Source of the DNA: a virus
Strand: one strand, 5' to 3'
DNA: 28,629 nt
IMG/VR virus record: IMGVR_UViG_3300044655_001213
Location: 1 to 28,629 of that record
Shown here: in pieces, positions 19,824-27,680 of the stretch
Position numbering within the stretch: position 1 is the stretch's first letter
Layout: every line of letters begins with the position of its first letter
Notes under the pieces: generated by a model
Databases searched by the model: none
Told to the model about the DNA's origin: nothing
The model's input: only the letters and a program-made list of their open reading frames with translations
Made by a program: the position numbers and the translations under genes

Positions 19824-20108
19824 TTATCGCTCACCGTCCAGTTTGACAATCCGATGCTCGACCCTGATCACTTCTAGTTTCACTTCGACCGTCCATGTGT
19901 GACCGCACGGGCCGCAATCGCCCTTCGTGCATTTGTCGCACTTGTAATACCGCGTCCGGCCATGTGTTGAATACGCCGTGCCGTAACCGCCGTTGCCACT
20001 CCAGCAAATGGGGCAATGGCGATACTCTTCAATGGTTCGCAGTTGCGGCTTTTCGACTGGAGTTTCCGTAATCTTTTGAACTGGCTTTTCTGGTCTCTGC
20101 TTACTCAT
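19824..20108 (-). CDS. small zinc-ribbon protein downstream of the large terminase
   Basis: A 94-aa protein whose ATG at 20108 lies eight bases inside the end of the terminase gene; longer in-frame starts would only shadow that gene. The first 28 residues are basic, Pro- and Thr-rich (RPEKPVQKITETPVEKP), then the cysteine set HCPICWSGNGG ... YYKCDKCTKGDCGPCGHTW gives CPIC, CDKC and CGPC pairs, enough for a treble-clef or zinc-ribbon fold like the Ogr/Com or 'transcription factor zinc-binding' type. The C-terminal strand (TVEVKLEVIRVEHRIVKL) is beta. It may be a late-gene regulator or a virion assembly factor; the operon context (between terminase and gpW) does not decide. Confidence 0.65.
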   Translation of the reverse strand: MSKQRPEKPVQKITETPVEKPQLRTIEEYRHCPICWSGNGGYGTAYSTHGRTRYYKCDKCTKGDCGPCGHTWTVEVKLEVIRVEHRIVKLDGER

Positions 20109-22014
20109 TCCAGTTCCTTCCATCCGGCCGCTGCGTTCCTTGGTTGACGACTGTTTTTGATTGCGTCCAGACATTGCTACGGGGTGGAAATCCTCCATTT
20201 TGGTCGATGTAGGCATGGGCGAGCGCAAGCCCGTACCGGACGGCGTCTCTGAAGTCGTTCGCAATGTTTTCATCCTTTTTTTGCCAGTGAAGTTTCGCGT
20301 TGCCTCGATTGTCAATCTTGTCACCAATGGTCCCGTTGCAAAGCTGTGAAAGAAACTCAATGTCCTGTTCCGCTCCAAGACAAAGGGAAAGTGCTTCATT
20401 GTCTTCAGGAAGTCGTTCATCAAGCCGGGCCTGAAGATCCGTTTCCCAGAAATCTGTGTTGACCGTCAACAGTTGCTGGCCTGCATAATCGCCTGACTCG
20501 ACTTCGGCGAGTCGATACGGCAAACCACCGATGTCAGTCGATGAACCCTTTATTGCCAGCATTCCCGAGTGCGTGTTGCAAAAGTCATAGGTCTTTTTTG
20601 TGTCCCAGCCAGAATCAGCCGCTGCTGCGTGTGGCATCATTGGATTGCCACCATCCAAGTGCTGGTAAGGGTTGCGAATATGGGTGCCCCAAACGTCTTC
20701 AAGCGTTTGAGAAAAACCACAATCGACAAGATGAGCCGAACGATTTAGCCCGTGAGCCAGCACCACCCACACACGATAACCACCATCGGCGGCTTGCTGG
20801 TCTATCGTGACAGTGACCAGCCGAGCCCACTCTGGCAAGATCCGGCGAGGAATCTTTGTTGCCAGCCGCTCGCCAACCTTTTCCGGCGTGCTTTTCGACT
20901 TCTTAGCCTCCCAAGTTTCGCCCTTGTCTTCGTTAATCCACTGCTGAAGGTCTTTCGGCTTTTTGCACTTTCCAAGAAAGTCGTCAACGATGTCACCCCA
21001 TCCGTGAAACAGTGCATAGAAAACACTGATCTGACATCCGTAATCTGAGCCCCAGTTGACCGGCTTACTTCGCAGCCAACTGTGATCGTCCGCAGCCATC
21101 TGCCGAGCTTCAATAGCCTTTTCGTGATCGACTTCGCACCCCTGCGGAACCCAGACGCCTCGATTCATCATCCACGGCCTGTGAATGTCGTCAATTCGGC
21201 CCTCACAATGCAAACACACATAATGTGCCGTCCGTCGTGCGAGCCCTCTATCGGTCTGTCCGTTCGGTAACTTCTCGTAGTGAATCATTCCCGGCTTGGT
21301 TCCGTCGCCGAATTCGATCGGCTGAAACTTGAAGCAGTGCGGGCAGGGAACCTGATAACGGTGATTTGTTGACTGCAGCCGGCCGGTTTCAATCGCACTT
21401 CGGCCCTTGATGCTTGGCGTTGACTCAAGAATGAACTTCCTGTCTGGAAATTCCGCTCCGCGCTTGCGAAAACGCTGGATCGGATCACCTTCCGTTGACG
21501 TATTCTCCACAAACCATTTATCAATTTCGTTTCCGACGCCAACCCGAATCGACTTGTCAGCCAGCCGCGATTTGCCTCGAGGCCACGCACCATGACACAC
21601 CGAACGCTTCAGCCTGATCTGAGTTTTGCTCTGGCGAATCGCTTTCGGGGCCTGATCTCGCAAGCGCGGGCAATGCTCAATCATCTTCCAGAAACGACCG
21701 AACACGCCTTTGCAGTTGGTTTCATCTGGCGTGGCAAACATTGTTTCCTCTGGCCGTTGATCCATCGACCTTTGAAGCATTGCCAGAGTGAAATTCGTCT
21801 TAAACATTCGGGCCGCCCACTGTAGCCAGATCGTGCGGAACTGAATCGAGTCATAGGCCCAGCACGGTCCCTGCGGAGCTGTTACCCACGGTGACTGTTG
21901 CTCTGAAAATGCTTCGCCAGTGTGGCTGTAGAAATACATGCGGATCCAGTCGGCTGCGGATTCATTTATCCGCGGCCTTACCGAATCTGCCATGATGTCT
22001 AAAAGCCAGCTCAT
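20101..22014 (-). CDS. terminase large subunit, GpA family
   Basis: A 637-aa packaging motor and nuclease, close in length to lambda gpA (641 aa). Seen: a deviant Walker A motif AARMFKTN with K72, Walker B region VGVGNEIDKW (about 158-167), motif C LESTPS (196-201), zinc-type pairs CPHC (224-227) and CLHC (about 268-271), and a nuclease domain with VTIDQQAADGGYRVWVVL, AADSGWDTKKTYDF and FRDAVRYGLALAHA supplying acidic residues of an RNase H-like fold. Known: gpA with Nu1 cuts concatemers at cos to make cohesive ends, so a cos site is expected near the small-terminase gene. The start overlaps the small-terminase stop in ATGA. Confidence 0.92.
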   Translation of the reverse strand: MSWLLDIMADSVRPRINESAADWIRMYFYSHTGEAFSEQQSPWVTAPQGPCWAYDSIQFRTIWLQWAARMFKTNFTLAMLQRSMDQRPEETMFATPDETNCKGVFGRFWKMIEHCPRLRDQAPKAIRQSKTQIRLKRSVCHGAWPRGKSRLADKSIRVGVGNEIDKWFVENTSTEGDPIQRFRKRGAEFPDRKFILESTPSIKGRSAIETGRLQSTNHRYQVPCPHCFKFQPIEFGDGTKPGMIHYEKLPNGQTDRGLARRTAHYVCLHCEGRIDDIHRPWMMNRGVWVPQGCEVDHEKAIEARQMAADDHSWLRSKPVNWGSDYGCQISVFYALFHGWGDIVDDFLGKCKKPKDLQQWINEDKGETWEAKKSKSTPEKVGERLATKIPRRILPEWARLVTVTIDQQAADGGYRVWVVLAHGLNRSAHLVDCGFSQTLEDVWGTHIRNPYQHLDGGNPMMPHAAAADSGWDTKKTYDFCNTHSGMLAIKGSSTDIGGLPYRLAEVESGDYAGQQLLTVNTDFWETDLQARLDERLPEDNEALSLCLGAEQDIEFLSQLCNGTIGDKIDNRGNAKLHWQKKDENIANDFRDAVRYGLALAHAYIDQNGGFPPRSNVWTQSKTVVNQGTQRPDGRNWNE

Positions 22015-22520
22015 CGCCTTCCCTTGATGTCGTCGCTGAGTTCCTTGAGAGCAATCCTGATTGTGTCCTCGACCGCTTCTTTGATTGGGGCTTTCAATTC
22101 TGCCGGACAGATGTTCGCGACTTTCAGACCGAGGGAATTCAACCGGTTCACGAGTCTTGAAAGCCCGATTGCAATGTCCCTTTCGACTTCGTCTTTTCGA
22201 ATCAGCCTTCCCTGAGCCAGATCATTCTTCAGCTGGCGAGTCCTGGCGTTCTCCCATCGCTCCGCCATTTCCGCCCGCTTCAGCTCGATCCCGATTTCCG
22301 AAACGTCAGCATCTTCCGCAACTGCCTTAATGTTTTCAGACCGCCACTTCTGAACGGCTTCAATTGATGTTCGCGGACAGCCGCGGGCAACGTATTTATC
22401 AATCGTTGCAGTACAGACCCCGATCCCTTCCGCCATAGCCTTGATTGTGAGATTTCGCGTTCGCTTTGGCTTTGACGGTGGCTTTTTTGTTCGCGTCTGT
22501 GTTTTCCTTTTCTGCTGCAT
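22011..22520 (-). CDS. terminase small subunit, Nu1 type
   Basis: A 169-aa protein. An N-terminal Lys/Arg-rich leader (residues 1-23) is followed by a helix-turn-helix reading TIKAMAEGIGVCTATIDKYV (about 25-44), then a long charged helix (ERWENARTRQLKNDLAQGRL, RKDEVERDIAIGLSRLVNRL) like the dimer or oligomer core of Nu1. Known: Nu1 binds repeated sites in cosB and bent DNA, and recruits gpA. The ATG at 22520 has no clear Shine-Dalgarno sequence; a shorter out-of-frame start at 22530 has one (AGGTAGG) but codes only 43 residues. It follows the non-coding gap with curved DNA and overlaps the large subunit by ATGA. Confidence 0.85.
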   Translation of the reverse strand: MQQKRKTQTRTKKPPSKPKRTRNLTIKAMAEGIGVCTATIDKYVARGCPRTSIEAVQKWRSENIKAVAEDADVSEIGIELKRAEMAERWENARTRQLKNDLAQGRLIRKDEVERDIAIGLSRLVNRLNSLGLKVANICPAELKAPIKEAVEDTIRIALKELSDDIKGRR

Positions 22521-22806
22521 CGGATGCCATAAAAGGGGCCTACCTACCTACTCCCCAGAATTTTTTTACGTACAAAAAAACGATTCAGTGCTTTACCTGC
22601 GCGCCCCTCCGGGGGTGCCGGGAGGACCCATAAACGCCACAAAGCCCGTGTTTTTCGCGTGTTTCTTGCCCGTCCGCATCATTTTTTGCCGTGTTTTTCG
22701 CACTTTTGGTGCGTTTTTATGTCGTGTTTGAGGTCATTTTTAACCCGTTTTTCGGCCGATTTTTGCGGGGTTTCGGTGCGTTTTTGAACGCGTTTCCGCC
22801 TCGTTT
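22521..22806. promoter_or_regulatory. non-coding gap with curved DNA, candidate cos region
   Basis: A 286-base gap between an appendage gene and the small terminase gene. Its right half (22651-22808) carries fourteen T-tracts (A-tracts on the minus strand), centred near 22653, 22663, 22684, 22696, 22705, 22716, 22728, 22739, 22750, 22762, 22772, 22783, 22794 and 22806, with mean spacing 10.9 bp. Its left half has GC-rich symmetric CCCCTCCGGGGG at 22605-22616 and, at 22561-22580, TTTTTTT and AAAAAAA arms around ACGTAC. In lambda, cos lies directly upstream of nu1, and bending there is made by IHF. An intrinsic bend next to a Nu1-like protein fits a packaging initiation site, but the cut site is not proven. 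Confidence 0.6.
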
Positions 22807-23199
22807 TTACCCTGCTGCCACCGCTGCAGCGTACGCCTCTTCACCTGTCTGCGTATCGCTGTCAATAATGATCTTCAGATCCTTCTGACGGACTGGGACA
22901 GCATCAGTCTGTCCTGATTCTGTAACGAGAAACGTGCCCCAATAAACCCCGGCCGCATCGACACCGCCAGAACTGAAGTCATAGTTGACCGTTCCGCTTG
23001 CTGCCGTCACAACTGTGACACCTGTCGACGTTGCTGCAATCTTTGTTGTTCCGTCTGCAGCATTGATCATCTTGAACGTGACCGTCAGCCCAGTTAGGTT
23101 GATTGCACTCAGCGTGCCAGATGAATCAGGCTGCTGCAAAGTGACAGGCAATACTGTTCTGAGATCACCAACCCGTCTTCTGTGTACCTGTGCTGTCAT
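22807..23199 (-). CDS. BppU-like baseplate/appendage beta protein
   Basis: A 130-aa protein resembling the N-terminal Ig-like module of phage upper baseplate protein (BppU_N family): LPVTLQQPDSSGTLSAINLT, then LTVTFKMINAADGT, GTVNYDFSSGGVDAAGVYWG and TFLVTESGQTDAVPV, alternating strands that the family uses to contact its neighbours. It starts in an ATGA overlap with the gene before it and is the last coding gene of the right-hand cassette; its stop lies in the last A-tract of the curved region. It may link appendage proteins to the tail tip or the capsid. The family fit is by pattern, not by search. Confidence 0.6.
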   Translation of the reverse strand: MTAQVHRRRVGDLRTVLPVTLQQPDSSGTLSAINLTGLTVTFKMINAADGTTKIAATSTGVTVVTAASGTVNYDFSSGGVDAAGVYWGTFLVTESGQTDAVPVRQKDLKIIIDSDTQTGEEAYAAAVAAG

Positions 23200-26407: not shown

Positions 26408-27067
26408 TTATTCCCGACCGCCAACCTGTTCCTGCATCGTCACCTTGACTGGCAGGTTCACAAGGCCCGTCCGTTGCAACAGTTCAACAACGTTATTCAG
26501 CCCAAAAATGGACAACGCCATTACGATAAATGCGGCCGCCATCTTCGGGTGTCGTTGCACCATTCGAATCGCCCCGAGCACGAATTTGTCTTCATCCGTC
26601 TGCGTCGTTATCGCCTTGAGCTCAACCGTCATCGCTTCGATTCTCGCATCCAGTTTCTGAGTGTGCTCCATCGCCATTGCGAAGGCCGTTGCTGTCCCGT
26701 TTTTTAGTGGCTCCCATGTGCACGCGAACCATTCTACATTCCCAGCAGGTGGATATCGAATCACAGTTAATATGCCCCAGTGTGATTCTCCCGATTTTTT
26801 TCTATATTTTTTTCTTACTGTCGACGCCTGCACGTAACCATCGGTAAGAGTCTTTGTGGCCAGCAAATCCGCTTCCAGACTTTCATCATCTACGCTGAGT
26901 TGTATCCATCCGATTTTCATCAGCTCAGATAGCGTATACTCAGACCACTCACGAAACGCTGCATTAGCGTATAGAATTGTTCCGTCCGCTTTCGAGATCA
27001 ACTTCATTGCTGAGCAATGCTCGATGATTGTTGCTAACTGTTCTTGCGTCGCGGACATTAGCCACAT
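26408..27067 (-). CDS. PAS-domain protein with C-terminal membrane helix
   Basis: A 219-aa protein. Residues about 10-118 form a PAS fold: MKLISKADGTILYANAAFRE then WSEYTLSELMKIGW (the N-box type start 'G-I-yaN-a---w-GYt--El'), a linker with charged repeats, and a beta end HWGILTVIRYP, WFACTWEPL. Residues 125-160 are a polar helix (HTQKLDARIEAMTVELKAIT) and residues 177-196 a hydrophobic helix (MAAAFIVMALSIFGLNNVVE), so it is anchored in the inner membrane. No kinase, GGDEF or other output is present. The ATG at 27067, with GGAG six bases before it, is preferred over 27058. The first 104 bases overlap the end of the HNH frame. Confidence 0.75.
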   Translation of the reverse strand: MWLMSATQEQLATIIEHCSAMKLISKADGTILYANAAFREWSEYTLSELMKIGWIQLSVDDESLEADLLATKTLTDGYVQASTVRKKYRKKSGESHWGILTVIRYPPAGNVEWFACTWEPLKNGTATAFAMAMEHTQKLDARIEAMTVELKAITTQTDEDKFVLGAIRMVQRHPKMAAAFIVMALSIFGLNNVVELLQRTGLVNLPVKVTMQEQVGGRE

Positions 27068-27680
27068 CGATTACTCCAAACACTGAAAACAATGGCGATT
27101 TACCACTATGGAACCGCTTGAGAATTGTTCCGTACTTCGCCGCACCTTCGACCGCCGCCCATTCAGAAATCGTTTTTGATTGTCCGTTAATTTCTATTCG
27201 TATGTTGTTTCTTCGGTTTCTCTGCTGCTGAGTCATCGTGGCCCATCGACAGTTGGCCTTGCAATACTCCCCCGTGCTGTCGATTCTGTCTATCGACTGT
27301 GATTCATCTGGATTCCCCATATCCTCCAGAAACGCCGTGAATTGCCTCCACCTGACGCAAACCCCTATCCCTTTAGCTCCGTACCACTTGTAGCTGATAT
27401 GTGCAGGATTGCTACATCGCTGAATCATCTGATTCCAGATACCATAGATCCGGGTTTTGCACCAATCATGCTTTCTGTTTCTGGCAACCATCACTGCGGT
27501 CTTGTAGCACCCGCACGATCTCGCCTTTCCTGATTTGACCCTTCCTATGTTCGTGATGAACCTATTTCCGCAGTGACACTTAAAGACAGCCATCCTGTCA
27601 TATCTCGAAACTCGAAATGCTTGACCCAACTGCACTGGCTTGCTGTTGACTGTTTCATTCCCTAATGCTTCAATTACCAT
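26964..27680 (-). CDS. HNH endonuclease with N-terminal zinc ribbon (homing-type)
   Basis: A 238-aa protein. Cys35/Cys37 and Cys56/Cys58 (KCHCGNRF ... RSCGCYK) form a zinc-binding N-terminus. The core YGIWNQMIQRCSNPAHISYK, WYGAKGIGVCVRW, FLEDMG, SIDRIDSTGEYCKANCRWAT and QQQRNRRNN is the well-known phage 'HNH/AP2' nuclease pattern, with SIDRIDN-G-Y---NCRWAT. A short HTH-like end (TISEWAAVEGAAKYGTILKR) follows. Beyond about residue 200 the frame runs 35 codons into the PAS gene in another frame and its sequence is not conserved-looking. ATG at 27680 with AAGGAG upstream. Such genes move as homing endonucleases; the 62-base gap upstream suggests an insertion. Confidence 0.8.
   Translation of the reverse strand: MVIEALGNETVNSKPVQLGQAFRVSRYDRMAVFKCHCGNRFITNIGRVKSGKARSCGCYKTAVMVARNRKHDWCKTRIYGIWNQMIQRCSNPAHISYKWYGAKGIGVCVRWRQFTAFLEDMGNPDESQSIDRIDSTGEYCKANCRWATMTQQQRNRRNNIRIEINGQSKTISEWAAVEGAAKYGTILKRFHSGKSPLFSVFGVIDVANVRDARTVSNNHRALLSNEVDLESGRNNSIR

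Follow-up and report, generated by a model that had tools for sequence, protein, structure and literature searches.

A phased A/T-tract array beside cosQ as a putative curved accessory element of a lambda-type cos site

The window analyzed here, a virus contig of 28,629 bases whose coding strand is the minus strand, carries a long array of helically phased A/T-tracts that, as read from the sequence, forms the final ~180 bp of the chromosome at its right end and abuts the cosQ subsite of a lambda-type cos. The array is probably an intrinsically curved, cis-acting accessory part of that cos which acts with cosQ and the terminase large subunit (TerL) in recognition of the terminal cos, a function that we infer from the position of the array at cos, its conserved register, its predicted curvature and its linkage to the cosQ/TerL module.

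Results

Phased A/T-tracts and predicted curvature in the window

The packaging locus of the window is of the lambda type, with genes for a terminase small subunit (TerS), a gpA-type TerL, a portal protein and a capsid/protease (Table 1). TerL has the ATPase (PF05876, 130.6 bits, cut-off 25.6) plus the gpA nuclease (PF20454, 107.4 bits, cut-off 22.5) of the gpA type, and the Nu1-like small terminase that adjoins it had no match in Pfam.

The array fills the interval on the minus strand between the stop codon of the last right-arm gene and GGGTCCT. All 14 tracts named in a preliminary description of this DNA are present where it had placed them, and two additional in-phase tracts lie closer to cosQ (22632-22634 and 22641-22643). 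The spacing of ~10.9 bp with one missing slot that it had reported agrees with a spectral period of 10.95 bp and a single empty slot near 22674. The same description had singled out the array as the most striking structure in the window, and the array is indeed both the top phasing peak of the 28.6-kb window (power of 10.7 versus 2.5 at the best unrelated place) and its highest peak of predicted curvature (8.4 sd above the mean, compared to 3.9 for the second-highest). In comparisons with shuffled sequences, its phasing power of 10.46 stood against a maximum of 4.13 among 1000 dinucleotide shuffles, and its bend per turn, a model prediction, was greater than that of all 150 shuffles in both of two curvature models, as would be expected if the array has the strong intrinsic bend that had been proposed for it.

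When 75 related loci (~0.4 Mb) were scanned, each of the three top phasing peaks (8.1, 4.4 and 4.2) proved to be an array in the corresponding position, and no other phasing peak exceeded 3.4. We rejected a tandem repeat or CRISPR-like array, as no tandem repeat was found at the array, and a structured RNA, as RNA folding at the array was no better than that of shuffles (z = +0.76).

Table 1. Features of the packaging region in the window.
Feature	Position	Strand	Basis or remark
Terminase large subunit, lambda gpA type	20101..22014	-	phrog_15 and Pfam
Terminase small subunit, Nu1-like, N-terminal HTH	22011..22520	-	phrog_57 terminase small subunit, E 7e-15
TAGG x3 tandem repeat, bp 48-59 of left end; candidate TerS (cosB-like) binding site	22539..22550	-	covaries with TerS recognition helix
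I2-like element with a T7 (bp 18-24) and an A7 (bp 31-37), counted from left terminus	22561..22580	-	layout as in lambda I2 (PMC4856287)
cosN region, GC-rich	22586..22622	-	contig ends of relatives
cosQ, GGGTCCT	22623..22629	-	the 7 bp annotated as cosQ in phages 434 and 21, also present at the right end of lambda
Array of phased A/T-tracts (16, each 3-6 bp long; period ~10.9 bp)	22632..22808	-	last ~180 bp of right chromosome end before cosQ
Last gene of right arm, tail-like protein; stop codon overlaps first tract	22807..23199	-	

The array lies on the right chromosome end, beyond cosQ

Relatives were collected first as 36 contigs with a related TerL and then as 80 by TerL profile, all of them metagenomic contigs; no prophage relative turned up when 84,980 genomes of bacteria and archaea were scanned with TerL. 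The contigs of many relatives start at one homologous point, with GG(T) as the first bases, which is 547-585 bp before TerL in close relatives and ~987 bp before it in distant ones, and in G037 (44,560 bp) the right and left contig ends overlap by 10 bp at the homologous terminus. Judged from the assembled sequences, these shared starts and this overlap are the signature of fixed cohesive ends, which sets the group apart from SPP1-type headful packaging with its variable ends.

The contig ends of the relatives and the lambda-type cosQ together predict a cohesive cut at ~22597/22598, and such a cut places the array on the right chromosome end, with cosN between it and the terminase genes. The predicted left terminus is GGTAAAGCACTG, beginning at 22597 on the minus strand, and a 12-nt overhang would occupy 22586-22597 if its length and polarity are those of lambda. 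The match of the window to the 7-bp lambda-type cosQ is exact, and the start of cosQ is 32 bp from the terminus, the spacing also seen when ends are joined, versus 30 bp in lambda; G015 and G016 have the cosQ variant GGTACTC.

The preliminary description had assigned the array to the packaging locus, which its abutting cosQ bears out, but had located it on the Nu1/cosB side as a possible replacement for the bend made by IHF at lambda cosB. That placement does not hold, as the array is beyond cosQ, at the right end and on the opposite side of cosN, and the I2/cosB-equivalent side has elements of its own. A bend between cosN and the TerS gene, the trait of an IHF-type cosB, is thus not what the array provides.

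Elements of the left end

The left end appears from its sequence to have an A/T bend like that of I2 at bp 18-50. An I2-like layout was seen at bp 18-45 of the left ends of the window, L067, L075, L080, L104 and L110, often as TTTTTTTG(C/T)(G/A)NATAAGG followed by a second T-run, and resembles lambda I2. Left-end pattern matches in L162 and L164 were set aside as AT-rich chance matches.

A 4-bp tandem repeat was observed at bp 47-59, at a fixed distance from the terminus, in the window, L063, L066, L067, L080 and L105. The sequence of the left-end repeat varies with the recognition helix of TerS: TAGG x3 pairs with CTATIDKYVARG, TTCC x3 with SDTTLKKYFARG, TTGG x3 with STVTIDKYVARG and GTTT x2 with SQVTIHKYFAAG, the exception being G070, which has TTCC x3 with another TerS type. 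From this pairing, the repeat is a candidate for the minimal TerS site. It takes the place of a cosB with R3-I1(IHF)-R2-R1 at bp 50-166, which was not found, and IHF-like sites were not in excess. The start of TerS is 77 bp from the left terminus, compared to 190 bp in lambda. Since the complexity of cosB differs among lambda-like phages (PMC4669245), the missing R3-I1-R2-R1 weakens only the claim of a lambda-like cosB. Just inside the left end of L096, L100, L074 and L119, a reading frame that by eye is ParB-like lies between the terminus and TerS.

The register of the array is conserved in relatives

Phased arrays before cosQ are found in ten phages of the TerL group (the window, G015, G016, G046, G051, G034, G036, G037, G047 and G010; shuffle p of 0.001-0.016 each), the TerLs of which are 44-98% identical. 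Phasing in related phages, a check proposed in the preliminary description, is thus seen at the equivalent place in nine relatives, which represent five more lineages besides that of the window; the lineages are not fully independent because the arrays share ancestry. The distribution of arrays among the relatives is patchy.

In nine of the ten phages, the tracts occupy shared slots at ~3, 13, 25, 35, 55, 67 and 78 bp from cosQ, to which longer arrays add 89, 100, 110 and on, while the tracts of G010 are phased but about half a turn outside the common register. The distance from the array to the next gene varies among relatives and that to cosQ is constant. The slot at ~45 bp is empty in seven of the nine in-register arrays, the window included, and the empty slot near 22674 may be the place of a sequence-specific contact. 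In several arrays, AATGC/GATGC-like sequence was noted at the empty slot (22663-22684 in the window).

The mean pairwise correlation of tract-position masks among five lineage representatives was 0.462, a value reached by none of 2000 dinucleotide shuffles (maximum of 0.159) and by none of 2000 rotations that preserve the internal periodicity (maximum of 0.325). Identity between the tracts was only slightly above chance (0.325 versus 0.27), and A-runs and T-runs are swapped between phages at slots 3, 35, 67, 89 and 110. An A-run and a T-run at the same place bend the helix axis the same way. Given these swaps and inter-tract sequence that is near chance, it appears to be the shape of the DNA rather than its sequence that is conserved, and selection on the bend is the most economical reading of the slots and the A/T swaps. 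Some sequence-specific constraint may also exist, however, as G/C runs have a weaker conserved placement (0.172) and inter-tract identity is above chance. Predicted bend per turn was above shuffles in all ten arrays, with at most 7 of 150 shuffles reaching the value in either model, and in none of five controls.

A wider search, in which viral contigs were pattern-scanned for A5-T3-cosQ, gave mostly chance matches. Beyond the known members, short A/T trios before GGGTCCT were found in L195, L234, L255, L226 and L261; L195 and L234 are phased over 150 bp (p of 0.002 each), in L255 and L261 phasing is confined to the adjacent 60 bp, and in L226 it was not significant. Searching with the terminal gene of G015 returned only the two known records.

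The array is linked to the cosQ/TerL module

G037 and G034/G036 have TerLs that are 93-94% identical and nearly the same array, yet their TerS proteins belong to different families. Because the array is kept across TerS families, it is not matched to TerS type and does not look like a TerS-specific version of the packaging platform envisaged in the preliminary description. Comparison of G037 with G034/G036 (L080, L074 and L079) gives the appearance of a small terminase exchanged beside an unchanged cosQ/TerL module.

Nor does the array travel with the neighboring gene. In L171, L173 and L175, the last gene is 92-95% identical to that of the window, the cos is another one and there is no array; no TerL of this group is encoded in the 41-kb L171 record. 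On these sequence comparisons, the array is linked to the cosQ/TerL module and not to TerS type or to the neighboring gene.

The array is not indispensable, since G002 and G003, with TerLs 86-87% identical to that of the window, keep the window-type TerS and lack an array; only 7-8 bp separate the last stop codon from cosQ in these phages. We considered that array loss might be tied to loss of the I2 T-tract, which fits G002 and G003, but G015 and G016 retain a strong array although they have no T7. In lambda, 434 and 21, neither phasing nor excess curvature was found at the equivalent place.

Discussion

Relation to known bent packaging sites

The site described here shares with the lambda-type cos (cosQ-cosN-I2-cosB; lambda, 21, 434 and N15) a gpA-type TerL, an identical 7-bp cosQ at near-lambda spacing (32 versus 30), fixed cohesive ends and A/T-tracts at the position of I2. 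It departs from lambda in the shorter distance from the end to TerS (77 bp) and in having a 4-bp repeat where lambda has R3-I1-R2-R1, and compared with lambda, 434 and 21, only the window phage has ~180 bp of phased A-tracts beyond cosQ. It can be viewed as a lambda-type cos that carries an extra curved element at the right chromosome end; searches of open-access text on curvature at cos sites and on bending at cosQ returned no description of bent DNA beyond cosQ.

Bent DNA at packaging sites is known from other phages, but it is on the other side of the cut, is shorter or is a TerS site. In lambda, the static bend of I2 and the intrinsic/IHF bend of I1, of ~28-34 degrees, are located between cosN and nu1 (PMC4856287). 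These are intrinsic A-tract bends that act in cis at cos, as the array may do, whereas the array lies across cosN from them and extends over ~16 helical turns. The pacL site of SPP1/SF6 is likewise bent DNA beside the terminase cut, with shape conserved rather than sequence (PMC4737164; PMC4856287); SPP1, however, is a headful pac phage in which pacL is the TerS site, and the window group has fixed ends and arrays that are independent of TerS type. The TerS of HK97 recognizes the shape of an A-tract close to cos, and this tract near the cut has been linked to stalling of the motor at the end of packaging (PMC11331095). The HK97 site differs in being a single 9-bp A-tract located 15-29 bp downstream of the cut, while the array of the window is long and upstream of the cut.

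How the array may act

Most likely, the array acts on the arriving motor: a terminase translocating along a concatemer would meet the ~180-bp curved stretch just before it reaches cosQ and cosN, and the fixed curvature, read as shape and not as sequence, would wrap the DNA or slow it against the motor, or else offer a second terminase protomer a place to land. Both modes of action would improve the recognition of cosQ and the cleavage of the two cosN strands when packaging ends, and the array may perhaps also aid processive re-initiation. As some relatives lack an array, it would raise efficiency rather than be indispensable. What points to a role in termination is solely the adjacency of the array to cosQ. 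Lambda cosQ is needed to recognize and cut the downstream cos when packaging ends, and lambda termination is independent of cosB specificity (PMC4669245); recruitment of a second terminase protomer at cosQ has been proposed (PMC4856287). Set against a curved accessory element of this kind are lambda, 434 and 21, which manage with straight DNA here, the absence of an array from G002 and G003, and G010, with tracts that are out of register.

We suggest, more tentatively, that the array could be a previously undescribed cos subsite, a curved-DNA ruler of ~180 bp with its register locked to cosQ and its shape kept while its sequence turns over, which would tell the motor that the genome end is near, with no dependence on the type of TerS or on a bending protein from the host.

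Other explanations

The main rival, which we consider unlikely, is that the array is a platform for TerS binding and wrapping, in effect a cosB moved across cosN that works like SPP1 pacL. The TerS of SPP1/SF6 shows no sequence specificity in its choice of bent DNA (PMC4737164), the pacL site is wrapped and has an intrinsic bend (PMC4856287), and the cosB layout of lambda does not fit into the 77 bp that the window phage has, versus 190 bp in lambda, between the terminus and TerS. The same array, however, accompanies two TerS families (G037 versus G034/G036), the candidate TerS site, whose sequence varies with the recognition helix, is on the left side, and G002 and G003 have the window-type TerS with no array.

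It is improbable that the array is instead bound by a host nucleoid protein (HU-, IHF- or H-NS-like) that organizes cos or silences or insulates the junction between the right arm and the terminase genes. Phased A-tracts attract proteins of these kinds, and in the joined form the array is between two genes of the same direction. Its register is nevertheless tied to cosQ and not to a promoter or gene start, the same neighboring gene beside a different cos has no array, and the count of IHF-like sites is unremarkable.

Less probable again is an element of transcription, which would either end transcription of the right arm or, as curved DNA upstream, activate a promoter of the terminase operon once the ends join. 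The array directly follows a stop codon and is ahead of the terminase genes, and in some relatives (G034 and G051) its far end carries a palindrome resembling a hairpin. We rejected a promoter or terminator at the array itself, as the coding (minus) strand there has no sigma-70-like promoter or terminator, the intrinsic type of terminator (GC hairpin with U-run) being absent; RNA folding is at shuffle level. Moreover, among relatives it is the distance to the next gene that varies and not the distance to cosQ, and the register runs through a conserved empty slot that a terminator would not need. That a curved right end, placed at the portal or tail and entering first, helps to hold the DNA or to start ejection is hardly credible: the array coincides exactly with the final ~180 bp at the right end of the chromosome, which would be the leading end in these phages by analogy with lambda, but curvature in a narrow channel is of no obvious benefit and two close relatives have no array.

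Significance

Since phage genomes are generally without A-tract periodicity (Abel and Mrazek 2012, PMC3431218), a long phased array that is fixed at a packaging site stands out. For the way in which a lambda-type terminase recognizes the genome end via cosQ, recruitment of a second protomer and rearrangement of the terminase have both been proposed (PMC4856287). In the phages described here, the shape of the DNA beside cosQ is visibly constrained in a natural system, which makes the question of end recognition directly testable, and close relatives that lack an array are ready controls.

Elsewhere in the window, positions 26964-27680 encode a 238-aa protein that has no Pfam match, contains Cys-rich segments and by eye resembles a phage protein of the AP2/HNH type.
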